Below, piece by piece: positions 9,023 through 46,887 of a stretch of DNA of 64,000 nt. Within the stretch, counting starts at the first letter, position 1; every line of letters starts with the position of its first letter. The notes under the pieces are model-generated. The model made no database searches and had not been told where the DNA came from. It saw only the letters and a program-made list of their open reading frames with translations. The position numbers and the translations under genes are program-made. The stretch is from Nesterenkonia sphaerica (GTDB lineage Bacteria; Actinomycetota; Actinomycetes; Actinomycetales; Micrococcaceae), in assembly GCF_005771565.1 (NCBI RefSeq), contig NZ_VAWA01000011.1:1-64000 (forward strand), in the 5' to 3' direction.

Positions 9023-9037
9023 GGAAAATCATCACTC

Positions 9038-9121
9038 CCATCGGCTCTGGCGTTAGCACCTTGCCCTGCGGGCCGGTTGCTGCGACGTCATCGGGCCAGA
9101 TCCCTCAGTCGCTCTGGATGG
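9038..9121 (-). ncRNA. SAM-I (S-box) riboswitch upstream of ssuB
   Basis: Read on the minus strand, P1 is CCATC (9117-9121) pairing with GATGG (9038-9042). P2 is GCGAC/GTCGC enclosing GAGGGATCTGGCCC. Next come the CAGCAACC core, a P3 hairpin closed by GGCCC/GGGC, then GGTGCTAAC and a GCCAGAGC strand. The other four aptamers in the window carry compensating changes in P2 and in the inner helix. The 3' strand of P1 runs directly into the ribosome binding site of ssuB. SAM binding would stabilise P1 and hide it, which suggests translational control; no separate terminator hairpin is visible. Confidence 0.88.
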
Positions 9122-9139
9122 TTTGTACAGCTGGAGCTA

Positions 9140-9169
9140 ACTGTAAGTGCTGATCCCGGTGGTCCGCAA
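9140..9169 (-). promoter_or_regulatory. Promoter of the ssuB riboswitch transcript
   Basis: Minus strand: the -35 element is TTGCGG (9164-9169), then 18 bp, then the -10 element TACAGT (9140-9145). Transcription would start about 10 nt before the aptamer's P1. The same 18-bp spacing with TAC-N-GT as -10 recurs before two other aptamers in this window. Confidence 0.5.
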
Positions 9170-9210
9170 AAATCCTGGCCTGCCGCGTCACACGGCGTAA
9201 GAATGCCTGG

Positions 9211-10440
9211 TCAGTTGCGGCTGTCTCCGATCGCGTTGAGGCCCTCAGGAAGTGTCCGGTTGATTTCGTAGTCCCCGATCGACCGTGCCCGGAACACTGT
9301 GGGGTTGTGCGTGGCGACGGTTTGGGCGTTGCGCCAGTGGCGGTCCAGGCCTTTGGTGCGCAAGGTGGCGGATGCTCCCACCGTCTGGAACAGCTCCTGG
9401 GTCACCTCCAGGACCAGCTCGTGCACAGTCACCTGCGCTTTCTCCACGGCGAGTTCGGGATCGTAGACCTCCTCTGGCAGCTCCCCGCGATACCCGGGAT
9501 GGTGTGTGCCCGCCTGCAGTCCGCTCTGCAGCGCCTGGTCGTGGATTCGGGCCACCTCTAGCACTGTGGCCTTGGCCGCGAAAGCTTTCGCGGACATGCG
9601 GCCGACAATCTGTTGGATCAGCGGATCGTCTTTGAAGGCGGCACCGGCTGCCGAGGTGTTGAATGTGCGAGTGCGACGCCGCACAGTGGCGGCAGCATCG
9701 CGCAGAGCCGCCTGGGCGATGCCGACCTGTACTGCCAGCAGGTAGAGCTGGAAGAAAGCAGCTTCGTGCACTGCTTCGTGTGATCCGTAGTCGCGGTTGA
9801 GCAGGTTCAGCGCAGGGACGCTCACGTTCTCAAAACGGGTGGTGCCGGTACCGGTGAGCTTCTGTCCGAAACCGTCCCAGTCGTCGACTACGGTGACGCC
9901 GGAAGCCTGCACAGGCACCACCGCGAACCGCCGGCCGGGCACACCAGGGTCCTGGGCGGCCGAGACCCGGGTGTAGTCTGAGAAGATCGTGCCAGTGGTG
10001 TAGAACTTCTCGCCATTGAGCACCCAGCCCCGCTCTGTTTCCGTCACCGTGGTGTTCAGGGACCCCAGTGCGTTTCCGCCGCGCTCGGTGGAGGCATTGC
10101 CGACCGTCCCTCCCCCCAGCACCACGGGGTACCACGCGTGTTGGATCTCGGGGGGCTGGAATCTGAGTGATTCCACAAAACCAAAGTGTCCCCGGTAGAG
10201 GTGGGCGATATTGGAATCGGCCTGGGCGAGCGCGATGACCTCAACGATGAGCTCCTCCACACTGGCCCCGGGGCCACCGTGCTCAGCCGGCACACGCAGG
10301 GCGCCGAATCGGCGCTGATCCAGACTCCTGACTTGCGCAAACGGCAGGACGCGGTCCAGGTCGCGCTCTGCAGCACCTGCGGCAATCTCGTCGAGCAGTT
10401 CAGGTTCAAGCACACGCGGGTGGTCGGTGGTGGTCGTCAT
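9211..10440 (-). CDS. Acyl-CoA-dehydrogenase-fold monooxygenase, SfnB/DszC-like
   Basis: This protein has 409 residues from the ATG at 10440, which overlaps the upstream metQ stop as ATGA; an ORF start at 10458 is therefore not used. It has the acyl-CoA dehydrogenase fold but resembles the flavin monooxygenase branch (SfnB, DszC). Visible segments are DSNIAHLYRGHFGFVE, a GEKFYTTGTIFSDYT sheet, DDWDGFGQKLTGTGTT, and C-terminal LDRHWRNAQTVATHNP. DszC-type enzymes take reduced flavin from a partner reductase and oxidise sulfur atoms. It is the last gene of the metN-metI-metQ-metQ unit, which links methionine uptake to oxidative desulfurization. The substrate is unknown. Confidence 0.8.
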   Translation of the reverse strand: MTTTTDHPRVLEPELLDEIAAGAAERDLDRVLPFAQVRSLDQRRFGALRVPAEHGGPGASVEELIVEVIALAQADSNIAHLYRGHFGFVESLRFQPPEIQHAWYPVVLGGGTVGNASTERGGNALGSLNTTVTETERGWVLNGEKFYTTGTIFSDYTRVSAAQDPGVPGRRFAVVPVQASGVTVVDDWDGFGQKLTGTGTTRFENVSVPALNLLNRDYGSHEAVHEAAFFQLYLLAVQVGIAQAALRDAAATVRRRTRTFNTSAAGAAFKDDPLIQQIVGRMSAKAFAAKATVLEVARIHDQALQSGLQAGTHHPGYRGELPEEVYDPELAVEKAQVTVHELVLEVTQELFQTVGASATLRTKGLDRHWRNAQTVATHNPTVFRARSIGDYEINRTLPEGLNAIGDSRN

Positions 10441-11312
10441 CGGTTCGCTTCCTCCCACGCGGCGTCAATGTCACGGTCAAAGGCCGGCGTGAGCAGACCG
10501 CCGAGGTATTCGCCGTACCACTGACGGACCTCCGCAGAGTGATAAGCGCTCTTCAACGCCTGGTACTTCTCCGGTTCAGCCTCCCGGAAGCCGGGTTGGG
10601 CCACGATTGTCATAGCGAACGGCAGCGCCTCATCCTGAGTTTCGATGATCAGCGCTTCCTCGGGCATCACGTCCACATCGGCCAGCAGTCTCGCAAACCC
10701 AAAAACGGCGTCGACGTCGTCATAGACAGTGCCGACCGACTGCTGGTCAACTTCGACGAACTCCAGATCCTTGGGGTTGCTGGTGATGTCGTTGACGCTG
10801 AGTTCCGGGGTGCTCTTGGACTCATCAACGTCAATCACTCCCGCACGCGCCAAGAGCCGGATGCCTCGTCCGTTATTGGCGGTGTCCACCGGCAGCGCGA
10901 CCTGCGCCGCATCTGGAAGCTCATCGATGGAGTCGAACTCTTTGGAGTAGATGCCGGAGGGCTGTTCGAACATGAAGAACAGGGGCTCCAGGTCCAGTCC
11001 GTGGTCCTGATTGAACTGCCAAAGGTAGGTGAGGTTCTGGAAGAAGTTGACGTCGTATTCGCCGTTGTCGACGGTGAAATTGGGCTGGATGATGTCGGTG
11101 ACGTAGGTGGTCTCCAGGGTCCATCCGTCCTCGTTCAGGAGGTCCTTGGCGATCTCTGTGGGTTCCTGAAACGGGGCGTTCTCGGTCACGACCATGCTGA
11201 TGGTCTCATCCTGCCCTGCCCCGGGCATGAGCCCGCAGCTGGTCAGTGCCAACGCTGAGGCTCCGGCTGCGGCGGCGGCCAACAGGCTCTTCGAGGTGCT
11301 GGTGTATCTCAT
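10437..11312 (-). CDS. metQ: MetQ/NlpA methionine-binding lipoprotein (copy 2)
   Basis: This protein has 291 residues. A signal peptide with lipobox ends at Cys26 (LALTSC). The NlpA/MetQ fold is shown by VVTENAPFQEPTEIAKDLL, VTDIIQPNFTVDNGEYDVN with the following FFQNLTYL, and a DAAQVALPVDTANNGRGIRLL segment. It is clearly similar to the adjacent upstream metQ, so the pair is a tandem duplication that has diverged. One copy may bind methionine and the other another methionine-like or organosulfur ligand, but this is inference. The stop is coupled to the SfnB-like gene. Confidence 0.85.
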   Translation of the reverse strand: MRYTSTSKSLLAAAAAGASALALTSCGLMPGAGQDETISMVVTENAPFQEPTEIAKDLLNEDGWTLETTYVTDIIQPNFTVDNGEYDVNFFQNLTYLWQFNQDHGLDLEPLFFMFEQPSGIYSKEFDSIDELPDAAQVALPVDTANNGRGIRLLARAGVIDVDESKSTPELSVNDITSNPKDLEFVEVDQQSVGTVYDDVDAVFGFARLLADVDVMPEEALIIETQDEALPFAMTIVAQPGFREAEPEKYQALKSAYHSAEVRQWYGEYLGGLLTPAFDRDIDAAWEEANR

Positions 11313-11329
11313 GGGTGGCTCAGTTCCTC

Positions 11330-12214
11330 TCAGGCTTCACCGTCGGTGAAGTCGTTCCAGGTCTCCTCGGCGTTGTCCAGGGTGATGAAATCGGCGAAGT
11401 CGATGACCCCGCCTTGGTACTCGGTGAACCATTCCTCCACCTCAGGTGAGTGGAAGGCATCCTGGAGCGCCTGGGCCTGCTCATCGGTGACTCCGTCCGG
11501 GCCCACCGCCACGACACAGGTGAAGGGGGTACGCACCTCGTCGCGTCCGTCCTCGAGATGGACAAGCGTCTGGTCAACCTCGTAGCCGGCCTCAGCGACT
11601 AACCGGACGAACGCGAAGCCCAGATCCACATCGGGCAGCACCTGTGCCCCGGACTGCTGGTCGGTCTCCACGAACTGCAGGTCCTTGGGGTTGTCGGTGA
11701 TGTGATTCTGGGTCAGGTCGATGACCGGGACGTCCTCGTCGATCTCAATCAGATCGGCATCGGCGAGCAACTGAAGGGCCCGCCCGTTGTTGGAGGGGTC
11801 CACCGGCAGATTCACCTCTGCCCCGTCCGGAATGTCGTCGAGGTCGTCATGGTGCAGAGAGAACAGTCCTGAGGGCGCGTAGTACACCGAGAACAGCGGT
11901 TCCACCGCGGTGTCATTGGAGTCGTTGAAGTTGTTCAGGTAGGCCAGGTGCTGGAAGTAGTTCGCCTCGTACTCACCGGAGTGGACCACTTGGTTGGGCT
12001 GGTTGATGTCGGTGACGTAGGTGACGTCCAGTTCATAGCCTTGCTCCTCCAGCAGGTCCGCAGCAATCTCTGCAGGTTCTTGGAAGGGGGCGGACTCGGT
12101 GACCACAATGCTGATCACCGTCTCGTCCTCACCGGCGAGACCGCAACCAGTGGCAGCCAACGCAGCGGCCGGCAGCGCGGCAGTGGAGGTGAGCAGGCGG
12201 CGTCGAGCGTTCAT
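11330..12214 (-). CDS. metQ: MetQ/NlpA methionine-binding lipoprotein (copy 1)
   Basis: This protein has 294 residues from the ATG at 12214, which has AAGAGGATC just upstream; the longer reading frame to 12316 only overlaps metI. The lipobox ends at Cys24 (LAATGC). Motifs parallel those of copy 2: VVTESAPFQEPAEIAADLL, VTDINQPNQVVHSGEYEAN, and GAEVNLPVDPSNNGRALQLL. MetQ delivers D- and L-methionine to the MetNI transporter. It lies 43 bp after metI and 17 bp before the second metQ. Confidence 0.87.
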   Translation of the reverse strand: MNARRRLLTSTAALPAAALAATGCGLAGEDETVISIVVTESAPFQEPAEIAADLLEEQGYELDVTYVTDINQPNQVVHSGEYEANYFQHLAYLNNFNDSNDTAVEPLFSVYYAPSGLFSLHHDDLDDIPDGAEVNLPVDPSNNGRALQLLADADLIEIDEDVPVIDLTQNHITDNPKDLQFVETDQQSGAQVLPDVDLGFAFVRLVAEAGYEVDQTLVHLEDGRDEVRTPFTCVVAVGPDGVTDEQAQALQDAFHSPEVEEWFTEYQGGVIDFADFITLDNAEETWNDFTDGEA

Positions 12215-12257
12215 TGATCCTCTTTCGGGCTGTGAGTGGAGTGGGACTGAAGGTGCT

Positions 12258-12932
12258 TCAGGCGGTGACGCGCTTGTCTGTGAAGCGGACCAAGCGGGTG
12301 CCGCTGTACTGGACAACCGTCACTAGGAGGACCATCAGCACGCAGGCCACCACCATGGTTTCTGTCTCATAGCGGTAATAGCCGTAGCGGATTGCGAGAT
12401 CCCCGATTCCGCCACCGCCGACAAGGCCTGACATGGCGGAGTAGGAGATGAAGCTGACGGTGGTGATGGTGATGGAGCCGATGATCGCGGGTTTGGCATC
12501 CACCAGCAGCACGTGACGGATGATCTGCCCCCGCGTGGCACCCATGGCCCGGGAAGCCTCGACCGCGCCGGTGCCCAGTTGTGTGATGTTCTGCTCGACC
12601 AGTCGCGCGAAATAGGGGATGGCGTTGATCGTCAACGGCACGATCACCGCGGCTGTGCCCACCGAGGTGCCCACGATCAGCCGTGTGAACGGGATGATGG
12701 CGATCAGCAGGATCAGAAACGGGAAGGAGCGGACCATATTGACCACCGTGGAGACCACGGCGTGAGACTTGGGTGTGGGTTTCAACCCGGCGGGAGCATG
12801 GCTCCACAGCCAGATTCCCAGGGGGGTGCCTAGGAGCACTGCCAGAGGGATGGCCACGCCGATCATGGCGAAGGTTTCCAGCATTGCTTGGTTGATCTCC
12901 GGCAGACGTGCCTGAATAGTCTGGAGGTTCAT
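12258..12932 (-). CDS. metI: Methionine ABC transporter permease MetI
   Basis: This 224-residue protein has five hydrophobic segments and the BPD_transp_1 domain. MetI-type landmarks are MVRSFPFLILLIAIIPFTR, TINAIPYFARLVEQNI, an EASRAMGAT EAA loop, and SYSAMSGLVGGGGIGDLA. The start codon overlaps the metN stop as TGATG, so translation is coupled. With MetN and the MetQ lipoproteins it forms the methionine importer, repressed through the S-box ahead of metN. Confidence 0.92.
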   Translation of the reverse strand: MNLQTIQARLPEINQAMLETFAMIGVAIPLAVLLGTPLGIWLWSHAPAGLKPTPKSHAVVSTVVNMVRSFPFLILLIAIIPFTRLIVGTSVGTAAVIVPLTINAIPYFARLVEQNITQLGTGAVEASRAMGATRGQIIRHVLLVDAKPAIIGSITITTVSFISYSAMSGLVGGGGIGDLAIRYGYYRYETETMVVACVLMVLLVTVVQYSGTRLVRFTDKRVTA

Positions 12933-13840
12933 CAGCGGAGTCCTCCTTCGACTGCGGCGAAGATCTTGTTCTCACGGGCGCGTGTGGGGTCCCAGGGCCT
13001 CGCCCCGGGTTCCGGTCCGGCCGCATCGAGTTCGTCCACGATGGCATCGAAGTCGGTCTCAGACGAGGTGTGCTTGCGCCGATTGAGGCTGATCCCGTCG
13101 GAGACCAGGTATTTTCCGATCGACGTGGTGGGAGAAAATCCCTCCCGCAGCAGATCGGTGGCGGGAAACTGCTCCACCACCCTGCCTGCTTCCATCACGG
13201 CCACATTGTCTGCCAGCGCTTTGATGACCTCCATCTCATGGGTCACCACCACTACGGTGATCCCGAACTCCGCATTGATGTCGGCCAGATATTGCAGCAC
13301 CGTCGCGGTGGTGAACGGGTCCAGCGCAGAAGTCGGTTCATCGCAGAGCAGCACCTGAGGCTTGGTGGCCAGCGCGCGGGCAATTGCCACCCGTTGTTTC
13401 TGCCCCCCGGAGAGCTGGGCGGGGTAATTCCGGGTCTTGTCCGTAATGTCAACGATTTCCAGGGCTTCAGCGGCTCGACGGCGTCGCTGCCTGGGATCTT
13501 TCACTCCTGCGAACTTCAATGACAGTTCCACGTTCTGCACGACGGTGAGGTTGTTGACCAGGTTGAACCCCTGGAAGATCATTCCGATCTGGTGACGGGC
13601 CCGGCGCAGCCCTTCGGCGTTCAGACCCGTGAGTTCCGTATCGCCTATCCACACCTCACCGGAGGTTGGCCTTTCCAGAAGGTTGATATTACGCAGGAGT
13701 GTCGATTTTCCTGCACCAGAAAATCCAATGATCCCCTGAATACTTCCTGCCGGAATTTCCAGCGACACGTCGTCTACCGCAGCAATTGGTTCTTTTTTCC
13801 CGGCAGCAAACGTAGTGGACACACGGCGCAGTGAAATCAT
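12932..13840 (-). CDS. metN: Methionine ABC transporter ATPase MetN
   Basis: This protein has 302 residues from the ATG at 13840; a reading frame reaching 13870 begins inside the riboswitch and is not a real start. Walker A is GFSGAGKST (39-47), the Q-loop is IGMIFQGFNLVNNLT, the signature LSGGQ is at 143-147, Walker B is VLLCDEPT (163-170) and VVTHEM holds the H-loop. Many MetN proteins are about 340 residues and end in a NIL (ACT-like) domain that senses intracellular methionine. Here the tail after about residue 240 is short and polar and no NIL domain is recognisable. Transport may therefore lack methionine trans-inhibition. It is the first gene after an S-box. Confidence 0.9.
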   Translation of the reverse strand: MISLRRVSTTFAAGKKEPIAAVDDVSLEIPAGSIQGIIGFSGAGKSTLLRNINLLERPTSGEVWIGDTELTGLNAEGLRRARHQIGMIFQGFNLVNNLTVVQNVELSLKFAGVKDPRQRRRRAAEALEIVDITDKTRNYPAQLSGGQKQRVAIARALATKPQVLLCDEPTSALDPFTTATVLQYLADINAEFGITVVVVTHEMEVIKALADNVAVMEAGRVVEQFPATDLLREGFSPTTSIGKYLVSDGISLNRRKHTSSETDFDAIVDELDAAGPEPGARPWDPTRARENKIFAAVEGGLR

Positions 13841-13849
13841 GTTAACTCT

Positions 13850-13932
13850 CCATCGTTCTGGCGTTAGCACCTTGCCTGTGAGGCCGGTTGCTGCGACGTC
13901 GTCGGGCCAGATCCCTCGGTCGCTCTGGATGG
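13850..13932 (-). ncRNA. SAM-I (S-box) riboswitch upstream of metN
   Basis: Minus strand: P1 is CCATC (13928-13932) with GATGG (13850-13854), P2 is GCGAC/GTCGC, the inner helix GAGGGATCTGGCCC is followed by the CAGCAACC core, and P3 is GGCCT/AGGC. GGTGCTAAC and GCCAGAAC follow. The 3' P1 strand fuses with the ribosome binding site (GATGGAGAG, 6 bp before the metN ATG). This implies sequestration of the start region when SAM is bound. Confidence 0.88.
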
Positions 13933-13945
13933 TGTACTGCTCGGT

Positions 13946-13976
13946 ACTCTACGCAGTGAACATAACCCTACGTCAA
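13946..13976 (-). promoter_or_regulatory. Probable promoter of the metN riboswitch transcript
   Basis: Minus strand: TTGACG (13971-13976), a 19-bp spacer and TAGAGT (13946-13951). The start point would fall a few bases before P1. The spacer is one longer than in the other S-box promoters here, so the assignment is weaker. The 130-bp divergent region 13933-14062 also holds the promoter of the rightward S-box transcript. Confidence 0.38.
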
Positions 13977-14022
13977 AGTCGACTTCACAATTCGTCACCT
14001 CGGAGGCGCGGCGTCATATGGT

Positions 14023-14052
14023 TTGAACTTTGCTTGTGCAGAGTCGTACTGT
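14023..14052 (+). promoter_or_regulatory. Promoter of the second flavin-monooxygenase riboswitch transcript
   Basis: The -35 element is TTGAAC (14023-14028), followed by an 18-bp spacer and the -10 element TACTGT (14047-14052). The aptamer's P1 begins 11 nt further on, so transcription would start almost exactly at the aptamer. The spacing and the TAC-N-GT -10 match the promoters ahead of ssuB and of the flavin reductase. Confidence 0.5.
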
Positions 14053-14062
14053 TTCACCGTAA

Positions 14063-14176
14063 CCATCCCGAGCGGCTGAGAGATCTGGCTCATTGACGCC
14101 GCAGCAACCCGGATACTGCAGACCTACCGAGTAGGGGAAGCACGTACCTGCCGGGTGCTACCGCCAGGACCGATGG
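14063..14176 (+). ncRNA. SAM-I (S-box) riboswitch with enlarged P3, upstream of a flavin monooxygenase
   Basis: P1 is CCATC (14063-14067) with GATGG (14172-14176). P2 is GCGGC/GCCGC, a compensatory change relative to GCGAC/GTCGC in the leftward copies, and the inner helix GAG/CTC replaces GGG/CCC. The CAGCAACC core is intact. P3 (CCCGG/CCGGG) contains about 38 extra nt, including a small CTAC-CGA-GTAG hairpin, so the aptamer is 114 nt long against 82-85 for the others. A GGGAG follows P1 at once but leads into a 12-codon ORF rather than the monooxygenase gene. Confidence 0.85.
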
Positions 14177-14186
14177 GAGTCTTCTT

Positions 14187-14225
14187 GTGCTGAACATTAT
14201 TGAAACCCACCCGAGAACGCCCTAG
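14187..14225 (+). CDS. Possible 12-codon leader ORF between S-box and monooxygenase gene
   Basis: A GTG at 14187 opens 12 codons (MLNIIETHPRTP) ending in TAG at 14223-14225. GGGAG (14175-14179) lies 7 bp upstream, in the position where the other aptamers place the ribosome binding site of their first gene. The real gene begins 75 bp later with its own GGAGG. This may be a leader peptide whose translation is what SAM controls, or a chance ORF. Confidence 0.35.
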   Translation: MLNIIETHPRTP

Positions 14226-14299
14226 CGCCTCGGGGCAGTTCGCACCACGTCTGCCGCACCGAAGTTCTCCTGCATTCGCCCTATTTCACCGGAGGCCCC

Positions 14300-15766
14300 A
14301 TGTCACGTCCGCCCCTGATCCTCAGTGCATTTCTCATGAATACCACCAGCCACATCATTGGTGGCGCCTGGCGCCGCGAGGAGGCCGAGCAGCATCGGTT
14401 TAACGAGCTCCCGCACTGGATTTCACTCATTCAGAAACTGGAATCGTCAGGTTTTGACATCGCGTTCTTCGCCGATGTGGTGGGGCTCTACGGTGACCAT
14501 GAGGGCGGGTGGGCCTCGCACCTGCGCCGAGGACTCCAAGTGCCGTCGAATGACCCCCTGGTGCTGCTCTCAGCGCTGGCCGCGGTCACTGACCGCATCG
14601 GACTTGCGATGACGTCCTCTGTGATCCAGGCGCACCCGTTCACCTTCGCCCGGCAGCTCTCCACGCTGGATCACCTCTCAGCCGGCCGGGTGGGCTGGAA
14701 TGTGGTGACAAATGTGCAGGAGAACGCGCACAAGAACTTCGGCGCCGCTGGGCTGGCCCAGCACGAGGACCGGTATGACTGGGCGGAGGAGTACTTGGAG
14801 GTCTGCTACAAGCTTTGGGAAGGTTCCTGGGAGGACGAGGCACTGCTGCAGGACAAGACGGCAGAACATGACCGGGGGCGCGGGCTTCACGCTGACCCCT
14901 CGAAGGTGTCAAAGATTCACCACCGTGGTGATCGATACTCAGTGGAGGGGCCTCACCTGAGCTCACCTTCACCCCAGCGGACTCCGTACCTCTTTCAGGC
15001 CGGATCCTCAGAACGCGGCCGTGAGGTTGCCGCTGCCCACGCGGAGGCCACGTTCTCGATGGCTCCGCGGAGGGACATTGCCGCCGCTCACGCGGCAGAT
15101 ATTCGCCGGCGCACCGCCAAGTTCGGCCGCCGCCCCGAAGATGTGAAGTTCATCCAGGGGCTGTCCTTTGTCATCGGCTCCACCGAGGCTGAGGCTGAGC
15201 AGAAGGCTCGTGATCTGGATGACTCCATCGATGACCATGCTCTCATCGCCCACACCGCCGGCAGTCTCGGGGTGGACGTGGGCCACCTGCCGATTGACGC
15301 CCCGCTGGAGGACCTCGAGCATACTGAAGGTGCGCAGGGTCATTTGTCTGAGATCAGGAAGATCGCACCCAATGGACGTGTGACCCTGCGGGATCTGGCC
15401 CATTTCCGCGCCCGGTCCACACGGATTGTGGGGACGCCGGAACAGATCGCGGATGTGCTGGCTGGCTGGCAGGAGGCTGGAGTCGACGGTGTCAACGTCA
15501 TCAACTCCACCATTCCCGGGTCCTATGACGAGTTCATCGACCATGTGCTCCCGGTGCTGCGCGAGCGCGGCCTGGCCCGCTGGCCTGAACAGCTCCGTTC
15601 CAGCACGAGTCTGCGGGCACAGCTGACCGGCTCCGACCGCCTCCCATACTCACATCCCGCCGCCGCCCAGCGCGGTGCATTCCAGCACTTCAGCGCAGCT
15701 GCGACTGAGACTGAGACTGAGACTACGAAGTCACACACTGCTGAAGAGCTGGTGGCAAGACACTAG
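14300..15766 (+). CDS. LLM-class flavin-dependent monooxygenase, NtaA/DszA family (second copy)
   Basis: This protein has 488 residues from the ATG at 14300, with GGAGG 4 bp upstream. It shares the DszA/NtaA plan of the gene at 4829-6232: an SGFDIAFFADVVGLYG N-terminal block, ALAAVTDRIGLAMTSSVIQA, LDHLSAGRVGWNVVTNVQ, DRYDWAEEYLEVCYKLWEGS, and GREVAAAHAEATFSMAP. The C-terminal 30 residues are a Glu/Thr-rich tail. It probably oxygenates a sulfone or sulfonate using FMNH2 from the flavin reductase encoded 3 kb away. Control is by the S-box upstream. Its stop codon interlocks with that of the convergent aldo/keto reductase in the palindrome CTAG. Confidence 0.85.
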   Translation: MSRPPLILSAFLMNTTSHIIGGAWRREEAEQHRFNELPHWISLIQKLESSGFDIAFFADVVGLYGDHEGGWASHLRRGLQVPSNDPLVLLSALAAVTDRIGLAMTSSVIQAHPFTFARQLSTLDHLSAGRVGWNVVTNVQENAHKNFGAAGLAQHEDRYDWAEEYLEVCYKLWEGSWEDEALLQDKTAEHDRGRGLHADPSKVSKIHHRGDRYSVEGPHLSSPSPQRTPYLFQAGSSERGREVAAAHAEATFSMAPRRDIAAAHAADIRRRTAKFGRRPEDVKFIQGLSFVIGSTEAEAEQKARDLDDSIDDHALIAHTAGSLGVDVGHLPIDAPLEDLEHTEGAQGHLSEIRKIAPNGRVTLRDLAHFRARSTRIVGTPEQIADVLAGWQEAGVDGVNVINSTIPGSYDEFIDHVLPVLRERGLARWPEQLRSSTSLRAQLTGSDRLPYSHPAAAQRGAFQHFSAAATETETETTKSHTAEELVARH

Positions 15767-16833
15767 AGCTCGGAGGAGACCGACCAGATGTTGATGCCCG
15801 CATCACCCGTGGTGATGGTGTCAATGACCTCGAGCTCTTCAGTGGTGAAGCTGGTGTGGTGCACCGCTGCCAGGTTTTCGTCCAGCTGAGCCGTGGAGGA
15901 GGCGCCCAGCAGCACCGAGGTGGCGCCACCGTCTCGCAGCAGCCAGGCGATGGCAAGCTGCGCCAGGGTCTGCCCGCGTGCGGCGGCGACGTCGTTGAGT
16001 CTCCGCAGCCTGTTCAGGTTCTCCTCGCTCAAGTGATGATCCAGCAGCGATGACCGTCCCCCCGCGGGCTGCGCGTCAGGATTCTTCAGATACTTATCCG
16101 TCAGCAGTCCCTGCGCCAGAGGCGTGAAAGCGATGGAGCCCATACCGGTCTCCTTCAAGGTTGCCAACAGGCCGTCTTCCACCCACCGGTTGAGCATGGA
16201 GTAGGCCGGTTGGTGAATGACCAATGGCGTGCCCAACTCTCCGGCGATGCGCGAGGCCTCCTGGGTGCGCTCCGCGGAGTAGGAGGAAATTCCCGCATAG
16301 AGTGCCTTCCCGGAACGCACCGCCGTGTCCAGGGCACCAATCGTCTCCTCCAAAGGGGTGTCCGGATCCACCCGATGGGAGTAGAAGATATCCACATAGT
16401 CCAGGCCCATCCGAGTCAAGGCCTCGTCCAGGCTCGCCAGGGTGTACTTCCGGGATCCGAAGTTGCCGTACGGTCCGGGCCACATGTCCCACCCTGACTT
16501 CGACGACACAATCAGCTCATCCCGGTAGGGCTTCAGATCCTTGGCCATGATCCGCCCGAAGTTCTCTTCTGCGGCACCGAAGGGCGGTCCGTAGTTATTG
16601 GCCAGGTCAAAGTGTGTGATCCCGGAGTCAAAGGCGTGCCGGATGATCTCACGCTGGCTGGCAAATGGTGTGGTGTCACCGAAATTCCACCAAAGCCCCA
16701 GTGAGATCGGTGGCAGCAGCAGTCCGCTGCGACCCACGCGCCGGTAGTCGAACTGGGCATAACGGTCACTTGGGGCTGTATACGGCGTGTGGGTCTCCTG
16801 ACCCCACGCGGAAACATCAACAGACTGCGTCAC
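15763..16833 (-). CDS. Aldo/keto reductase, YghZ/MgrA-like
   Basis: This protein has 356 residues from a GTG with GGAG 6 bp upstream. It is a TIM-barrel NADPH-dependent oxidoreductase. The AKR pattern is visible: GITHFDLANNYGPPFGAAEENFG with the catalytic Asp and Tyr, Lys in IVSSKSGWDMWPGPYGNFGS, and His in DIFYSHRVDPDTPLEE. The MWPGPYGNFGSRKY stretch is typical of the YghZ/L-glyceraldehyde-3-phosphate reductase group. It follows the SfnB-like gene by 108 bp on the same strand, so it is likely in the same S-box-controlled transcript. A role in handling an aldehyde released by desulfurization is inferred. Confidence 0.85.
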   Translation of the reverse strand: MTQSVDVSAWGQETHTPYTAPSDRYAQFDYRRVGRSGLLLPPISLGLWWNFGDTTPFASQREIIRHAFDSGITHFDLANNYGPPFGAAEENFGRIMAKDLKPYRDELIVSSKSGWDMWPGPYGNFGSRKYTLASLDEALTRMGLDYVDIFYSHRVDPDTPLEETIGALDTAVRSGKALYAGISSYSAERTQEASRIAGELGTPLVIHQPAYSMLNRWVEDGLLATLKETGMGSIAFTPLAQGLLTDKYLKNPDAQPAGGRSSLLDHHLSEENLNRLRRLNDVAAARGQTLAQLAIAWLLRDGGATSVLLGASSTAQLDENLAAVHHTSFTTEELEVIDTITTGDAGINIWSVSSEL

Positions 16834-16941
16834 TGGTACTCCATTCGTTGCGATGGGACTGCCTACAGGTACCCTACCGAGGTCGTACTCACCCAGAGTG
16901 CCCGGGGTGGAGCACGGCTCCTCCGCTCGGCGTCTTCCCGC

Positions 16942-18162
16942 CTACACCTTCTGGGTTTCCTGCGGTTCTCCGACGCTCCAGAGCCGCACCGGTGCCGTTC
17001 CGTTGACCCGGTAATCTCCGGCAATGCGCGCCTTGTACACCCAGGGGTTGTGGCTGGCCACGGTCCGGGCGTTGCGCCAATGTCTGTCCAGGGACTTCCC
17101 CCGGTTCGTACCTGAGGCCCCCAATGCGTCGAAGATGCGACTGGTGGCCTCCAGCACCGGCTTATGCAGCGCCACCTGGGCCCGGCCGGTGGCCAGCTCC
17201 ACCTCATCGACTGCCCTGTCCTGCTCCTCTCGGCTCAGCTTCCGAGTCGCGAAAGCCTCATCGAGTGCCCGCGCGGTGGCCAGGACCTGGGCCCGGGCTA
17301 GAGCTGCCGCGGCGTCGACCTCCCCCACCGCCTGCAGCAGCTGAGGGTCAGAGGCGGGCTGCAGCGTGTTCGCGTGGGAATAGGTCCGCTTACGCACACG
17401 GAGGGTCTGCGCAATATCGCGTACGGCCGCCTCAGCGATCCCAGCCCACACAATCAGCAGGATGTGCTGGTACAACGCGGTCTGGTACGGGAATCGGTCG
17501 GTCAGTTCGCGGACCTCGTAATGGGTCACCGCCGCATTGGTCAGTGCGGCAGACCCGGACCCGGTGGTCCGCTGGCCGAATCCATTCCAATCGTCACTGA
17601 TCGCGACCCCGGGCTGGTCCCGCCGGACCAGCAGGCCCAGCTCGTAGCCGGCCTCATCACGCGCGGTCACGTCAAGCCAGTCCGCGAAAATTGAGCCGGT
17701 CGTGTAGTACTTCACGCCGTTGACCACCGGGCCGCGCGAGGTGTGCTTCAGCACGGTTCCGGAGCGGTCAAACCCACCCTGACCGGGCTCGGTCCACGCG
17801 TTCCCGGCCAGCTCGCCAGCGCCAAACCGCTCCAACCAGCTCCGCGCAGACTCATTGTCGGACCCGCGCCAGAGCGCGTCTTCCTGCACCGCGAGGTGAC
17901 CGCGGAAAATTTGTGGGAGATTGCTGTCCTGCGCGGCAAGCTCGACCAGCACCTCCGTGGTCTGCACCCAGTCCAGACCCAGCCCGCCCAACTCCTCGGG
18001 AACCCGCAGCCGCCCCAGACCGGCCTCCGCGAGCGCCCTCACCTCCCGGTACGCCAGAGTCCGGTCCAGCTCCCGGTCCAAGGCGTTGGTCCCCGCCTCA
18101 GAGATTGCCTTCTCCAACTCCTGGGGCAGGTGGAGCCGGGACAGGTACATACGTGCATTCAT
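16942..18162 (-). CDS. Acyl-CoA-dehydrogenase-fold monooxygenase, SfnB/DszC-like (second copy)
   Basis: This protein has 406 residues from an ATG with a strong GGAGGAGA. It has the same fold and branch as the gene at 9211-10440. Shared landmarks are DSNLPQIFRGHLAVQEDALW, VVNGVKYYTTGSIFADW, DDWNGFGQRTTGSGSA, and SLDRHWRNARTVASHNPWVY. DszC/SfnB enzymes need reduced flavin and act on sulfur heterocycles or sulfones. It is the first gene after an S-box and precedes the aldo/keto reductase. The two DszC-like copies have diverged clearly, which suggests different substrates. Confidence 0.8.
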   Translation of the reverse strand: MNARMYLSRLHLPQELEKAISEAGTNALDRELDRTLAYREVRALAEAGLGRLRVPEELGGLGLDWVQTTEVLVELAAQDSNLPQIFRGHLAVQEDALWRGSDNESARSWLERFGAGELAGNAWTEPGQGGFDRSGTVLKHTSRGPVVNGVKYYTTGSIFADWLDVTARDEAGYELGLLVRRDQPGVAISDDWNGFGQRTTGSGSAALTNAAVTHYEVRELTDRFPYQTALYQHILLIVWAGIAEAAVRDIAQTLRVRKRTYSHANTLQPASDPQLLQAVGEVDAAAALARAQVLATARALDEAFATRKLSREEQDRAVDEVELATGRAQVALHKPVLEATSRIFDALGASGTNRGKSLDRHWRNARTVASHNPWVYKARIAGDYRVNGTAPVRLWSVGEPQETQKV

Positions 18163-18172
18163 GGGTTCTCCT

Positions 18173-18257
18173 CCATCGTCTCTGGCGGTAGCACCGGTCC
18201 TGTGTCAGGGGGTTGCTGCGATGTCTGCGGGCCAGATCCCTCGATCGCTCGTGATGG
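18173..18257 (-). ncRNA. SAM-I (S-box) riboswitch upstream of SfnB/DszC-like gene
   Basis: Minus strand: P1 is CCATC (18253-18257) with GATGG (18173-18177). P2 is GCGAT/ATCGC, a further compensated variant, the inner helix is GAGGGATCTGGCCC, the core is CAGCAACC, and P3 is CCCTG/CAGG followed by GGTGCTACC and GCCAGAG. The 3' P1 strand runs into GGAGGAG, the ribosome binding site of the gene at 18162. Confidence 0.88.
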
Positions 18258-18387
18258 TCTTCCCTGAAATGTTCAAGGCAAAGTCAGCCTAATGCTCAAT
18301 TCCCTGAAGCACGCAAGCCCTCTGCGGCTCGCGTCACACAACGTCATGCTCGTCCACCCGGTTACATCTCGAAATGTGACACATCTT

Positions 18388-18417
18388 TTGCCCGGTCAAG
18401 ACTCAGAGGCGTACGGT
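18388..18417 (+). promoter_or_regulatory. Promoter of the flavin reductase-metY riboswitch transcript
   Basis: The -35 element is TTGCCC (18388-18393), followed by an 18-bp spacer and the -10 element TACGGT (18412-18417). P1 of the aptamer begins 9 nt further on, so the transcript would start at or next to the aptamer. Confidence 0.5.
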
Positions 18418-18425
18418 AGAAGAGT

Positions 18426-18507
18426 CCATCCCGAGCGGCCGAGAGATCTGGCTCTGTGACGCCGCAGCAACCCGGAACATGCCGGGTGCTACCGCCAGGT
18501 TCGATGG
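18426..18507 (+). ncRNA. SAM-I (S-box) riboswitch upstream of flavin reductase-metY operon
   Basis: P1 is CCATC (18426-18430) with GATGG (18503-18507), and P2 is GCGGC/GCCGC around GAGAGATCTGGCTC. The core is CAGCAACC, P3 is a short CCGG/CCGG hairpin, then GGTGCTACCGCCAGG. GGGAG overlaps the end of P1 and serves the ATG at 18518. This is the most compact of the five aptamers. Confidence 0.88.
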
Positions 18508-18517
18508 GAGATCTTCC

Positions 18518-31790: not shown

Positions 31791-32813
31791 TTACTTGATG
31801 GATTTGCCGGCCGAACCGAGCCGCTGGGCCGCTTCGACCACTCGCTGGGCCATGTTCTCCTCAGCGGCCTTGCCCCAGACCCGCGGATCGTAGGTCTTCT
31901 TATTGCCGACGTCACCGTCGACCTTCAGCACCCCGTCGTAGTTCTTCAGCATGTGATCGACCACCGGCCTGGTGAACGCGTACTGCGTATCGGTGTCGAT
32001 GTTCATCTTGATCACCCCGTAGCTGACCGCATCGGAAATCTCCTGCTCGGTGGAGCCGCTGCCACCGTGGAAGACCAGATCAAAGGGGTTCTCCTTGCCG
32101 TACTTCGCGGAGGTCTGTTCCTGGATGTCCTTGAGGATTTCCGGGCGCAGCTTCACATTGCCGGGCTTGTACACCCCGTGCACGTTGCCGAAGGTCAGCG
32201 CCGTGATGTAGCGCCCCTGCTCACCGAGGCCGAGAGCTTCAATCGTTGCCACGGCGTCCTCAACAGTGGTGTAGAGCTTCTCATTGATCTCGTTCTCCAC
32301 GCCATCCTCTTCACCACCGACGGTGCCGATCTCCACTTCGAGGATCTGTTTTGCCGCAGCGCTGCGCGGAAGCAGCTCAGCAGCAATTCGGAGGTTTTCT
32401 TGCAGCGTTTCCGCCGATCCGTCCCACATGTGGGAGTTGAAGACGGGGTCACGTCCGGCCTTCACCTCAGCCTCTGAGGCTTCCATCAGCGGGAGCACGA
32501 AATCATCAAGCTTGTCCTTGGGGCAGTGGTCGGTGTGCAGGGCAATGTTCACCCCGTAGTTCTTCGCGACCTGCTTGGCGAAAGTGGCGAAGCCCAGCGA
32601 GCCGGCCACCATGTCCTTCACGAACGGGCCGGACCAGTACGCTGCGCCTCCCGTGGACACCTGGATGATGCCATCGGACTCAGCGTCGGAAAAACCCTTC
32701 AACGCCGCATTCAGCGTCTGGGAGCTGGTGACATTGACCGCTGGGTAGGCATAACCACCTGACTTCGCCGAGTCGATCATCTGGTTGTACTTGTCAGGGG
32801 TTGCAATGGCCAC
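31791..32813 (-). CDS. fbaA: Class II fructose-bisphosphate aldolase
   Basis: This 340-residue zinc-dependent glycolytic aldolase shows YAYPAVNVTSSQTLNAALKG at the N-terminus, ALHTDHCPKDKLDDFV with the catalytic Asp and zinc His, SHMWDGSAETL, EIGTVGGEEDGVEN, and FHGGSGSTEQEI. This is the class IIA pattern. The ATG has GGAGCTTCAGC upstream. A HAD hydrolase gene follows. Confidence 0.95.
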   Translation of the reverse strand: MAIATPDKYNQMIDSAKSGGYAYPAVNVTSSQTLNAALKGFSDAESDGIIQVSTGGAAYWSGPFVKDMVAGSLGFATFAKQVAKNYGVNIALHTDHCPKDKLDDFVLPLMEASEAEVKAGRDPVFNSHMWDGSAETLQENLRIAAELLPRSAAAKQILEVEIGTVGGEEDGVENEINEKLYTTVEDAVATIEALGLGEQGRYITALTFGNVHGVYKPGNVKLRPEILKDIQEQTSAKYGKENPFDLVFHGGSGSTEQEISDAVSYGVIKMNIDTDTQYAFTRPVVDHMLKNYDGVLKVDGDVGNKKTYDPRVWGKAAEENMAQRVVEAAQRLGSAGKSIK

Positions 32814-43339: not shown

Positions 43340-43412
43340 TGGCTCCGACCGGCGTCGATCCGGTGACCTTTCGATTTTCAGTCGAACGCTCTACCAACTG
43401 AGCTACAGAGCC
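43340..43412 (-). tRNA. tRNA-Phe (GAA)
   Basis: The gene is 73 nt on the minus strand. The acceptor stem GGCTCTG/CGGAGCC has one G-T pair and the discriminator is A. The D-arm is AGCTCAGTTGGTAGAGC, the anticodon loop is CTGAAAA with anticodon GAA, and the T-arm is CCGGATCGACGCCGG. No CCA is encoded. Confidence 0.95.
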
Positions 43413-43434
43413 AAGTCTGAAAACCGATGTCCTG

Positions 43435-43508
43435 CGACCCTGACGGGACTTGAACCCGCGACCTCCGCCGTGACAGGGCGGCGCGCTAACCAACTGCGCC
43501 ACAGGGCC
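43435..43508 (-). tRNA. tRNA-Asp (GTC)
   Basis: The gene is 74 nt on the minus strand. The acceptor stem is GGCCCTG/CAGGGTC and the discriminator is G. The D-arm is GGCGCAGTTGGTTAGCGC. The anticodon stem CCGCC encloses CTGTCAC with anticodon GTC, and the T-arm is GCGGGTTCAAGTCCCG. It lies 22 bp from tRNA-Phe, so the genes are probably co-transcribed. Confidence 0.95.
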
Positions 43509-43596
43509 TTACGTGCTGCTGTGCCGAACTCGGCACGAGGAGAAACTTTATCAGAGCTTCTCCGGCTCCGCCACTTCGCAAGAGTGCCGGAACACG

Positions 43597-43669
43597 TACC
43601 CCCAACGGGATTCGAACCCGTGCCGCCGCCGTGAAAGGGCGGTGTCCTAGGCCGCTAGACGATGGGGGC
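43597..43669 (-). tRNA. tRNA-Glu (TTC)
   Basis: The gene is 73 nt on the minus strand. The acceptor stem is GCCCCCA/TGGGGGT and the discriminator is A. The D-arm is GTCTAGCGGCCTAGGAC, the anticodon loop is CTTTCAC with anticodon TTC, and the T-arm is ACGGGTTCGAATCCCGT. It is first in the Glu-Asp-Phe order, a common actinobacterial cluster. Confidence 0.95.
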
Positions 43670-43813: not shown

Positions 43814-44179
43814 ATGCCCGTTCAGATGAGCGATGACGAGTTCGATGCCGCGGTGACCGACGCCCTCGACCTGATTCCTTCGGAGCTTGCCGCGAAAATC
43901 GAGAATGTGGCCTTCTTTGCCGAAGAGCGCTACCAACCCGAACCGTGGGAGGATCCGAACACTGTACTGCTAGGGCTCTACGAAGGGATTCCCCTGACCG
44001 AACGGGGAGGCGAGCCGTGGGCCATGCCGGACCGGATCACCTTATATAAGGAAGCGATTCTGGAAACCTGTGAGACTCGCCAAGATGTCGTGGAACAGGT
44101 CACCATCACCGTCATCCACGAGGTAGCACACCATTTCGGCATCAGTGACGAGACTCTGCACCAACTCGGCTGGGGCTAG
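43814..44179 (+). CDS. Zincin-like metallopeptidase family protein
   Basis: This 121-residue protein has the zinc motif HEVAHHFGISD (first His at about residue 102), giving an HExxH site plus the downstream Asp of the MpgF/DUF1025-type zincin fold. The N-terminal part has FDAAVTDALDLIPSELAAKI, and LGLYEGIPLTERGG is in the middle. Cytosolic, no signal peptide. Function is not established. Confidence 0.85.
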   Translation: MPVQMSDDEFDAAVTDALDLIPSELAAKIENVAFFAEERYQPEPWEDPNTVLLGLYEGIPLTERGGEPWAMPDRITLYKEAILETCETRQDVVEQVTITVIHEVAHHFGISDETLHQLGWG

Positions 44180-44248
44180 CAGCACAACTGTCCGTGCAGA
44201 TCGAGCAGCTGGATGCTTAGCACAACCCTGTGCTGAAGTTGTGGAGCT

Positions 44249-44275
44249 CCAACCTTCAACCTACTTGAAGGTTGG
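44249..44275 (+). terminator. Terminator after the metallopeptidase gene
   Basis: CCAACCTTCAA (44249-44259) and TTGAAGGTTGG (44265-44275) form a perfect 11-bp stem with a 5-nt loop, 70 bp after the peptidase stop. Confidence 0.7.
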
Positions 44276-44407
44276 CAAACATGGATTTTGCCCCTTGGAT
44301 CCCCGGAAATACGGGTTTTTGTCTTCACAGCTTCGTCACAGAAACGACACGGCCTATTGCCTCCGTGACCTTTTCGCAATTATCGTGAACGCCAGCAGCA
44401 CCGCGAA

Positions 44408-44528
44408 GGGTCCACGCCAGACGCGTTTCCCATCGCAGTCGCTCACACGAAGGGTCATCGCACCCGGGAGGTGAGCGTCCGCGTCTGGACCGGACCCACA
44501 GCCCGCCTTTCCCAAGACGGGGCAGGCT
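44408..44528 (+). ncRNA. Structured 5' leader RNA upstream of the NlpC/P60 gene, candidate riboswitch
   Basis: Four nested helices can be read: GGGTCC (44408) with GGACCC (44492), CCAGACGCG (44417) with CGCGTCTGG (44480), GCTCAC (44441) with GTGAGC (44471), and GGGT (44452) with ACCC (44462). Each is perfect, separated by short internal loops and a larger asymmetric one. A second hairpin, AGCCCGCCT (44500-44508) with GGGCAGGCT (44520-44528), follows and ends about 40 nt before the start codon. Cyclic-di-AMP riboswitches often precede actinobacterial NlpC/P60 genes, but I do not see that aptamer's conserved bases here, so the class is open. Confidence 0.55.
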
Positions 44529-44568
44529 GACGCGGCACTGCGCCCATGAGAAAAAGTGAGGAACTACC

Positions 44569-46887
44569 GTGAAGCACCCCCGCAATCTTGCGGCGGCGGC
44601 CGTCACCGCCGCCGTCGTGACGACAGCACTTGTCGGGACCACCCTGGTCGCTGATCGCACCTCCGATGATTCGATTGACCAGGCCACTGACCAGGCTCTC
44701 TCGGCTGAAACTCTCGTGCGGACTGATCTGCCCGAGGTTCCCTCAGCGGACGATATCTCCACGGCCAGGGAATCACAGGACGCCCGAGACAGCATGATGG
44801 TCGACATCGTGGGCCGTATTGACCAGGCTATCGACCGGGCCGACGAGCTGGAACTTGAGCTGATGCGCCAGCACTCCCTGGCTCAGGCGCGCCTTCAGGA
44901 GGCCGCAGACCTGCAGCAGGAAGCTGAAGACGCCGCAGAGGCTGCTGAGGCAGCCATGGCGATGGACGCCTCCGAGGAGTACCAGGAAGGCGACACCTCC
45001 GCCGCCGACGTCCTGTTGGGCGATGAGGACGCACTGGCCGAGGACGCCACTGATCAGCAGCGCTCCGACCAGGCCGAACGTGAAGCTGTCGATGCCGCTC
45101 AATTGCAGCGCGAAGCCGAAGCCGCCTCCGACGCCGCTGCGAGCGCCTCCGAGGAAGCTGCTGCGACGCTGGCCAGCACCGGCACCCAAAGCGGATCCAC
45201 CCAAGTGGGCCTTGAAGATCTCGACAATGTGCTCCGGGACCTGCTGGACACCCTGCGGGAAGAGGAAGGCTTCGAAGGCAGCCTCAACGAGTTCCTCACC
45301 TTCATGTACGGCGAGAACGACCGTACCGACGGCGGCTCCGGGTACTTCGACGCCGATGGGAATCTCGACGGCGACGCACTGCGCGAACGCATCCGCCAGC
45401 TTCGAGCCGCTGGACCTCAAGTAGAGGTCGCAGCCGCCGAAGAGACCCCAGATACCACCGAGGATTCTTCGGACGATGCGGAAGGGGAAGCCACGTCGTC
45501 CGAAGAATCTGAGGTCACCGAGCCTCCCTCGCTGGAGTCGCTGAGCTCCGAGCAGCGCCGGCTTCTCTCGCAGGCCGCCGAGCTGGAGAACTTCGACAGT
45601 ACGTCTGCGTACTATCGGGTGGTGCTGAGCAACTCCGACCTGACCAGCGGCGGGACTGTGGACTGGGACGCCTTCAGCGCCCACGTCGACTTCCTGAACT
45701 CTCAGTCCGAGGAGGCTGAGACCGATGCGGCGGAGTCGACCCCTTCGCCGAGCCCCACCTCAACTCCCTCGCCGAGCCCGACCGCCTCGCCGTCACCCTC
45801 GCCCACCGCGACGACATCGTCTGTGCCGGGATACAACTCGCTGAGTTCGGGGCAGCAGTCACTGCTCTCTGAGGCTGCGGACCTGGAACCGGACTTTGAC
45901 GGTGGTGCCCGCGACTACTACACGCTGCTGCAGAGCAATGATCTCTTCACCACCAGCAGCGGTGCCGTGAACTGGACCGTGCTTGAGGGTCACGTCTCTT
46001 ACCTGAACAACCAGGCGGAGGCCCGCTCCAGCGCGCAGCAGGAGAGCAGCTCGGAACAAAGCAGCACGGAGCAGAGCACCCAGAGTGCCGCCCCCAGCCC
46101 CTCACCTACACGCACCTCCTCACCGAGCCCGACGCCGACCCCCTCGCCGTCACCGACTCAGACCTCGAGTCCAGCACCCTCACACTGGGACGACCTCAGC
46201 AGTGAGCTGCGCAGCCTGCTCAGCGAGGGTGCTCAGCTGGAGCCCGGCTTCACCGGCTCCGGTGGCGACTACTGGCGAGCAGCTCTGCAGAATCCTGAGC
46301 TGACCAACAGCGATGGCACGGTTTCCACCTCGAAGCTGGCCTCTCACGTCAGCACCCTGCGAAACCAACAGAGCACGTCCTCGGAGAGCTCCTCCACTAG
46401 CGGCAGCTCTTCCTCCAGCAGCTCTTCAGGGAGCTCCTCCAGCGGCAGCTCCTCCACCAGCGACAGCTCAAGTGGCAGCAGCACTGCCTCATCCTCCACC
46501 AGCAGTGGGTCACAGCCCGCCAGCAGCAGCAGCGGAAGCAACGCTGCGTCGATCGCGGTGAACTGGGCCCGCAATGAGGCCACCCGTCCCGGCACCAGCT
46601 ATGTGCTGGGGGCCAATGGGCCCGACGCCTGGGACTGCTCCAGCTTCACCCAGGCAGCGTACCGGGCAGCGGGAGTCAGCTTGGGCCGCACCACCTGGGA
46701 TCAGATGGTTCAGGGCCAGGAGGTCTCATGGGCGGACCGCCGTCCAGGTGACCTCATATTCTGGGACGACTGGCATATGGCAATCTATCTCGGCGACGGC
46801 ATGATGGCCGACGCTGGCAACCCGAGAGTGGGAGTGTCAGTGCGCAGCGTCTTCGGCAGCCCGACCATGGTCCGCCGCGTCGCATAA
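44569..46887 (+). CDS. Secreted NlpC/P60 peptidoglycan hydrolase with repeated ~60-residue modules
   Basis: This protein has 772 residues from a GTG. A signal peptide (about 1-29) is followed by a charged Ala/Glu/Gln-rich coiled coil (about 60-205). Three similar modules start near residues 321, 421 and 539, each with LSS-x-x-x-x-LLS-(E/Q)-(A/G)-A-(E/D/Q)-LE, an aromatic YY/YW and a closing HV-x-x-L-x-NQ. A more distant copy may start near 214. Ser/Thr/Pro linkers (PSPSPT repeats) separate them, and a 60-residue Ser/Gly tract precedes the NlpC/P60 domain (about 659-772), with Cys690 in WDCSSFTQAAYRAAG and His736 in DDWHMAIYLGDG. It probably cleaves peptide cross-links at the cell surface. The modules may bind the wall. 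Confidence 0.85.
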   Translation: MKHPRNLAAAAVTAAVVTTALVGTTLVADRTSDDSIDQATDQALSAETLVRTDLPEVPSADDISTARESQDARDSMMVDIVGRIDQAIDRADELELELMRQHSLAQARLQEAADLQQEAEDAAEAAEAAMAMDASEEYQEGDTSAADVLLGDEDALAEDATDQQRSDQAEREAVDAAQLQREAEAASDAAASASEEAAATLASTGTQSGSTQVGLEDLDNVLRDLLDTLREEEGFEGSLNEFLTFMYGENDRTDGGSGYFDADGNLDGDALRERIRQLRAAGPQVEVAAAEETPDTTEDSSDDAEGEATSSEESEVTEPPSLESLSSEQRRLLSQAAELENFDSTSAYYRVVLSNSDLTSGGTVDWDAFSAHVDFLNSQSEEAETDAAESTPSPSPTSTPSPSPTASPSPSPTATTSSVPGYNSLSSGQQSLLSEAADLEPDFDGGARDYYTLLQSNDLFTTSSGAVNWTVLEGHVSYLNNQAEARSSAQQESSSEQSSTEQSTQSAAPSPSPTRTSSPSPTPTPSPSPTQTSSPAPSHWDDLSSELRSLLSEGAQLEPGFTGSGGDYWRAALQNPELTNSDGTVSTSKLASHVSTLRNQQSTSSESSSTSGSSSSSSSSGSSSSGSSSTSDSSSGSSTASSSTSSGSQPASSSSGSNAASIAVNWARNEATRPGTSYVLGANGPDAWDCSSFTQAAYRAAGVSLGRTTWDQMVQGQEVSWADRRPGDLIFWDDWHMAIYLGDGMMADAGNPRVGVSVRSVFGSPTMVRRVA

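Follow-up and report, generated by a model that had tools for sequence, protein, structure and literature searches.

Structure of the NlpC/P60 Hydrolase Leader

The DNA analysed here is a stretch of 64,000 nucleotides (nt) from Nesterenkonia sphaerica (Micrococcaceae), called the window below, and positions are those of the window unless a contig is named. "Own genome" means the N. sphaerica assembly (label G000) to which the window belongs. Region 44393-44568 of the window is the 5' leader of a gene for a secreted NlpC/P60 cell-wall hydrolase. The protein has 772 amino acids (aa) and its NlpC/P60 domain is C-terminal (Pfam PF00877, E 2.7e-16). The features of the leader are listed in Table 1 together with a small RNA encoded elsewhere in the own genome, which is a predicted partner of this leader.

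The leader RNA folds much better than expected for its composition. The predicted fold of 44408-44528 has an energy of -60.4 kcal/mol compared with -44.5 +/- 3.3 kcal/mol for dinucleotide shuffles (z -4.8, with none of 200 shuffles as good), and the whole predicted leader at 44393-44571 reaches -80.4 kcal/mol (z -3.8). An earlier note on this DNA, made from the sequence alone, had described nested helices far beyond chance and a second hairpin just before the start region, and both were recovered, the latter as arm B. Its helices stand as well, but not all loops between them are small: one is a 12-nt bulge on one side only. The closing stem P0 had been overlooked. In distant relatives P0 is formed by GUAGCGCC/GGCGCUGC.

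The leader promoter is a putative one, placed from its sequence, and transcription is predicted to start at about 44392-44396. It was not called by a generic sigma-70 scan. The block at 44350-44390 is the most conserved DNA among the congeneric loci, and the TANNNT form of the -10 element is kept in nearly all relatives as TATCGT, TACTGT, TAACGT, or TACTCT.

Table 1. Features of the leader, the regulated gene, and the predicted small RNA partner (bp, base pairs).
Feature	Position	Strand	Remarks
Putative leader promoter	44357..44386	+	-35 TTGCCT 44357-44362, -10 TATCGT 44381-44386 (TANNNT type)
Closing stem P0, 5' strand GCAGCACCGCG	44395..44405	+	Predicted pairing with 44531-44541
Arm A, outer helix, 6 bp	44408-44413/44492-44497	+	Predicted fold; structure counts of relatives
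Arm A, P1, 9 bp, CCAGACGCG/CGCGTCTGG	44417-44425/44480-44488	+	Fold and persistence in other clades
Arm A, one-sided bulge, 12 nt	44426-44437	+	Best conserved part of the leader
Motif UUCCCAUC in the bulge, predicted pairing site of small RNA loop 1	44427..44434	+	
Arm A, P2, 8 bp with one U.U	44438-44446/44471-44479	+	Predicted fold
Arm A, apical helix, 4 bp	44452-44455/44462-44465	+	Predicted fold
Arm B, second hairpin preceding the start region	44499..44529	+	Predicted fold
Closing stem P0, 3' strand CGCGGCACTGC	44531..44541	+	Predicted fold
Ribosome-binding site AGUGAGGA, predicted pairing site of small RNA loop 2	44555..44562	+	
Regulated gene, secreted 772-aa NlpC/P60 cell-wall hydrolase	44569..46887	+	GTG start; open reading frame; PF00877
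Unannotated two-hairpin RNA, about 58 nt	Own genome contig C4, about 32058-32116	+	Intergenic, behind a uvrA-like gene

Conservation of the Leader in Nesterenkonia

Matches to the leader locus at the DNA level alone were found in 15 of 30 congeneric genomes and were strongest in the promoter and the 5' part. An ortholog of the hydrolase is encoded by 25 named Nesterenkonia loci, with one record named Garicola koreensis, and 28 orthologous leaders were extracted for comparison. They have a common plan, consisting of a closing stem, an arm with P1, the 5' bulge and P2, usually a second arm, and then the ribosome-binding site. This architecture is maintained over all 28 leaders while most helix sequences differ, and the arm lengths vary widely. 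The pairing of P1 is preserved with clade-specific sequences, namely CCAGACGCG/CGCGTCTGG, GCAGGCGC/GCGCCTGC, and TCGAATCGCG/CGCGATTCGA. Taken alone in each leader, the P1 helix gave a weak result against shuffles (p <= 0.05 in 10 of the 28, median 0.14), and the case for this helix therefore rests on its persistence with changed sequence.

Covariation among homologous leaders, proposed in the earlier note as a check of function, is present in eight close relatives. In their alignment 87% of cells are paired, as against 30-42% when the alignment is slid by 1-3 columns. Both sides have changed in ten cells, a count reached by 3 of 500 shuffles; for the covariation score the figure is 5 of 500.

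The constant primary sequence of the leaders is (GCG)UUUCCCAUC(KC), located in the bulge, and it was recognised by its conservation before the small RNA was known. Its mean unpaired probability is 0.86, compared with 0.385 over all 8-nt windows, and in most leaders it is the most exposed 8-mer. The placement is modular, with one or two copies per leader in the bulge, in the loop of a 4-bp hairpin (G016, N. pannonica), or in an apical loop; several relatives have a second copy, UUCCCAUCGC, in the apical loop. In most predicted folds part of the ribosome-binding site AGUGAGGA is base-paired (0.18-0.74 unpaired). Pairing of the motif in cis with the ribosome-binding site of its own leader was considered and rejected, as only 4-5 pairs could form.

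A Conserved Predicted Small RNA with Two Hairpins

Six exact copies of the 10-mer TTCCCATCGC occur in the own genome. Three are within coding sequence and a fourth is that of this leader; the remaining two belong to the leader of an M23/Rpf-like hydrolase gene and, in antisense orientation, to an intergenic element. This element gives the small RNA of Table 1 when read in its own orientation: GUGCGC-GAUGGGAA-GCGC and then a 15-bp hairpin whose loop is CCCUCCUCAC. The predicted fold has two hairpins (z -5.0). The element is conserved in all 30 Nesterenkonia genomes. A pattern search found it in 30/30 of them and gave no true match in 365 other genomes of the family; hits of a looser pattern in other genera were discounted as unrelated spacers at chance level.

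Among 26 aligned species the loop sequences GCGAUGGGAAGCG and UCCUCAC are invariant. The stem of hairpin 2 has changed by compensation, with 10 of its 15 pairs changed on both sides (36 such cells) and 98% of cells paired, a result reached in 0 of 500 shuffles. A small open reading frame within the element was rejected, since odd-length indels break the frame, and the locus is thus not a small gene. Three loci of the small RNA were compared with Rfam, and no family, including RF01066, was matched up to E 1.

Extra copies of hairpin 2 with the loop CCCUCCUCAC exist in six genomes (loci L108-L113 in G018, G029, G006, G011, G005, and G021). They have a different, mostly conserved 5' domain (AGGAGAGCGAACUGG...) and are without a LexA box. 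Probably they represent a paralogous small RNA family sharing the hairpin complementary to ribosome-binding sites.

Complementarity of the Two RNAs

The two loops of the small RNA each have a matching site in the leader. Loop 1, GAUGGGAA, complements the motif UUCCCAUC exactly, and the flanking GCG and GC can lengthen this duplex in the own leader to 14 pairs, including one G.U, with -27.9 kcal/mol. Likewise, loop 2, UCCUCACU, is perfectly complementary to the ribosome-binding site AGUGAGGA (duplex of -12.8 kcal/mol). The match to loop 1 covers the full 8 nt in 22 of the 28 leaders and at least 7 nt in 27, and the match to loop 2 covers 8 nt in all 28. When the own leader was shuffled 20000 times, both matches occurred jointly in 3 cases. 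Within the window, GTGAGGA serves as ribosome-binding site at one other gene start only.

LexA-Type Box and Putative SOS Regulon

The promoter of the small RNA in the own genome overlaps the palindrome TAGAAGACGTGTTCTA, a LexA-type box of the same form as those of recA, lexA, ruvA, uvrA, and uvrB. The box (TAGAA/TGTTCTA) is kept in this promoter in all 26 aligned species. Searched with the pattern TMGAAN6TTCKA, the own genome has 12 palindromic sites, compared with 5 in a reversed control. The 12 include sites at recA, lexA, ruvA, uvrA, uvrB, the dnaE2 operon, and the small RNA, and some of the others are intragenic. A LexA-boxed gene for a LysM protein (positions 1118-1513 of locus L165, minus strand) is divergent from lexA; the protein resembles the division suppressor YneA, with a resemblance just under the NCBI cut-off.

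The LexA-boxed operon with dnaE2 (L223, own genome contig C12, about 237012-237060, minus strand) was also seen to carry in its leader CGCGCUUCCCAUC, a perfect 13-nt complement of the small RNA. This leader has an alternative self-fold GAUGGG...CCCAUC.

Other Candidate Targets

The candidate targets belong to the cell wall, to division, or to the SOS response itself (dnaE2). In six species an M23/SH3/transglycosylase (Rpf-like) hydrolase gene is preceded by a leader with both the motif and a GTGAGGA site like that of the NlpC leader. For divIC/ftsB (PF04977), the leader contains ACGCUUCCCAUC, an 11-nt complement of the small RNA; six species share it without change and a seventh has it almost unchanged. 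In the whole own genome there are 54 sites of TTCCCATC, and few remain outside coding sequence, among them those of the divIC/ftsB leader and the dnaE2 operon. In four species CCUUCCCAUCGC was also found in the short spacer between ftsZ and pgeF (position 1500 of loci L030, L034, L035, and L046), and this junction is possibly a further target.

Proposed Function of the Leader

What is seen at the sequence level is a conserved leader, a conserved and covarying small RNA, the complementarity of its loops, and a LexA-type box. These features suggest transcription of the small RNA, its control by LexA, pairing in the cell, repression as the direction of regulation, and a physiological role. Probably the leader serves as the landing pad for a trans-encoded, SOS-induced antisense RNA repressing cell-wall hydrolases and division genes, and not a riboswitch. 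After DNA damage, cleavage of LexA would allow synthesis of the small RNA. Loop 1 GAUGGGAA would kiss UUCCCAUC, held unpaired in the leader bulge, and the flanks would extend the contact to 14 pairs. Loop 2 UCCUCACU would then cover the ribosome-binding site AGUGAGGA, and translation of the NlpC/P60 hydrolase would be blocked. Via the same motif, the M23/Rpf and divIC/ftsB leaders may be hit as well, in part. Through these effects combined, the SOS division checkpoint would have an RNA arm, by which a damaged cell pauses wall cutting and division.

Several observations weigh against this proposal. Six of the 28 NlpC leaders deviate from loop 1 by one base (five mismatches and one G.U), and the pairing bases are near-invariant in both RNAs, which leaves no compensatory change between them to prove contact. 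The copy of the motif in the M23/Rpf leader would be mostly paired according to the predicted folds (0.22 unpaired), and it has one mismatch in muleiensis. The divIC leader is without a GUGAGGA site. The box in the small RNA promoter, being LexA-type by sequence, is no proof of LexA binding. A U-rich terminator and a consensus sigma-70 promoter were looked for and not found, and the ends of both RNAs are only predicted ones.

The extended form of the proposal is a genus-wide, free-standing SOS small RNA with two seeds that acts as a division and wall checkpoint. It would silence NlpC/P60, M23/Rpf, and divIC, with the ftsZ-pgeF junction added in some species, from the leader position that c-di-AMP riboswitches hold in sister genera. 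For this form the chances are judged to be about even.

Alternative Explanations

The leader could instead be a ligand riboswitch of a new class or a far-diverged riboswitch for cyclic di-AMP (c-di-AMP), with the bulge as binding pocket and P0 gating the ribosome-binding site. The earlier note had suggested a c-di-AMP riboswitch variant or a new class and had proposed a search with RF00379 and other Rfam models, which could have shown a known element. The genomic niche fits, as actinobacterial c-di-AMP riboswitches are located at nlpC and rpf1 of Corynebacterium glutamicum (PMC9960051), and sister genera carry RF00379. The leader also has a closed multi-arm architecture with a conserved asymmetric bulge. 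However, the leader has no match in Rfam 15 at the gathering score and nothing relevant up to E 10. RF00379, the c-di-AMP riboswitch (gathering score of 38 bits), is not matched in 44200-44700 of the window even at E 10, and the orthologous leader loci of 13 relatives have no Rfam match, including RF00379, up to E 1. Above the cut-off, RF00379 was found in none of the 30 Nesterenkonia genomes by a search that detects the C. glutamicum and Bacillus subtilis controls, whereas a sampling of the family, likewise with positive controls, detected it in 50 of 62 genomes, from 26 of 32 genera. A lone sub-threshold hit (L026, 17 bits) was dismissed, since it sits within an open reading frame. The motif is also modular and stands outside this architecture in the divIC leader, which is more typical of a pairing site than of an aptamer. 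Conservation of the bulge is explained without a ligand by its perfect complementarity to a conserved small RNA. The suggestion of the earlier note thus holds for an unrecognised conserved element; by its sequence the leader is an unrecognised conserved regulatory leader, and is neither a c-di-AMP riboswitch nor a visible variant of one. A riboswitch of a new class or a far-diverged c-di-AMP riboswitch is considered unlikely here. A plasmid collection was searched too, with no match.

The contact between the two RNAs could be real and the outcome opposite, with the small RNA activating or stabilising the mRNA. Pairing in a leader can open an inhibitory fold, and most predicted folds pair part of the ribosome-binding site, as described above. 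But loop 2 complements the ribosome-binding site itself in 28/28 leaders and would block ribosomes, and no structure was seen that hides this site and is opened by pairing of the bulge, so activation is rated as quite unlikely. It is very unlikely that UUCCCAUC is the site of an RNA-binding protein, titrated or mimicked by the small RNA or its relatives: multiple short single-stranded loop motifs do resemble CsrA-type sites, but the small RNA has the complement of the motif and not the motif, its two loops match two separate leader sites, and no candidate protein was found.

Neighbourhood of the Leader

Upstream of the leader promoter, at 44251-44273, there is a palindrome AACCTTCAACCTACTTGAAGGTT, near-invariant across almost all Nesterenkonia loci; in some of them its five central bases are inverted. 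From its sequence it looks like an operator for some regulator. Elements GTGACC/GTAACC stand near the -35 and -10 elements of both the NlpC promoter (44365-44390) and the M23/Rpf promoter (L094), and presumably resemble MtrA-type sites. Just upstream of the leader, 43340-43669 and 43814-44179 contain three minus-strand tRNA genes and a small open reading frame resembling a metallopeptidase (HEVAHHFG). The tRNA genes adjoin the leader in most relatives as well. Farther away, at 9026-18510, five S-adenosylmethionine (SAM) riboswitches (RF00162) lie within 10 kb on both strands.

Relationship to Known Systems

Described SOS division inhibitors are nearly all proteins. The proposed RNA is like SulA, YneA, SosA, DivS, and SidA in that division would be delayed upon SOS induction, and it would be an arm additional to the YneA-like LysM protein encoded by lexA in the own genome. 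As an RNA precedent for an SOS division inhibitor, DinR alone was found, which is Hfq-dependent and Gram-negative, and no SOS small RNA of Actinobacteria was found in an open-access library.

DinR of Klebsiella pneumoniae is a small RNA under LexA control that, in the SOS response, acts at the ribosome-binding site of ftsZ to repress its translation; it derives from the 3' untranslated region of dinI and needs Hfq (PMC10907235). It is the closest precedent, sharing LexA-type control, as judged from the box, and a sequence that complements a ribosome-binding site in a division or wall gene. In contrast to DinR, the Nesterenkonia RNA lies behind a uvrA-like gene with a conserved, LexA-boxed promoter region of its own, has two loop seeds, and would act on different targets (hydrolases and divIC), and no homology is claimed.

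In the small RNAs 6C (RF01066) and B11 (PMC10470900) of mycobacteria and other Actinobacteria, two hairpins carry loop seeds that act on translation start regions, for 6C reportedly without a chaperone. The Nesterenkonia RNA is similar in having two stem-loops with loop seeds. It differs in its loops GAUGGGAA and CCCUCCUCAC, as 6C/B11 have C-run loops for G-rich sites, and it has no Rfam match, is limited to one genus, and is LexA-boxed.

The nlpC and rpf1 leaders of C. glutamicum contain a ydaO-type c-di-AMP riboswitch (RF00379), thought to act on translation (PMC9960051). As in the present case, actinobacterial NlpC/P60 and Rpf genes are preceded there by a structured leader. Unlike them, the Nesterenkonia leader is not recognised by the model and has other conserved bases, and RF00379 is absent from the genus.

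If the proposal is true, Actinobacteria arrived independently at a DinR-like logic, in which a dedicated RNA with a LexA box acts on several targets together, and the prediction of its contacts is precise to the base. DNA damage would be linked directly to the synthesis of cell-wall hydrolases and Rpf. A genus without the c-di-AMP riboswitches of its family would then bear a small RNA landing pad in leaders of the same kind of gene.
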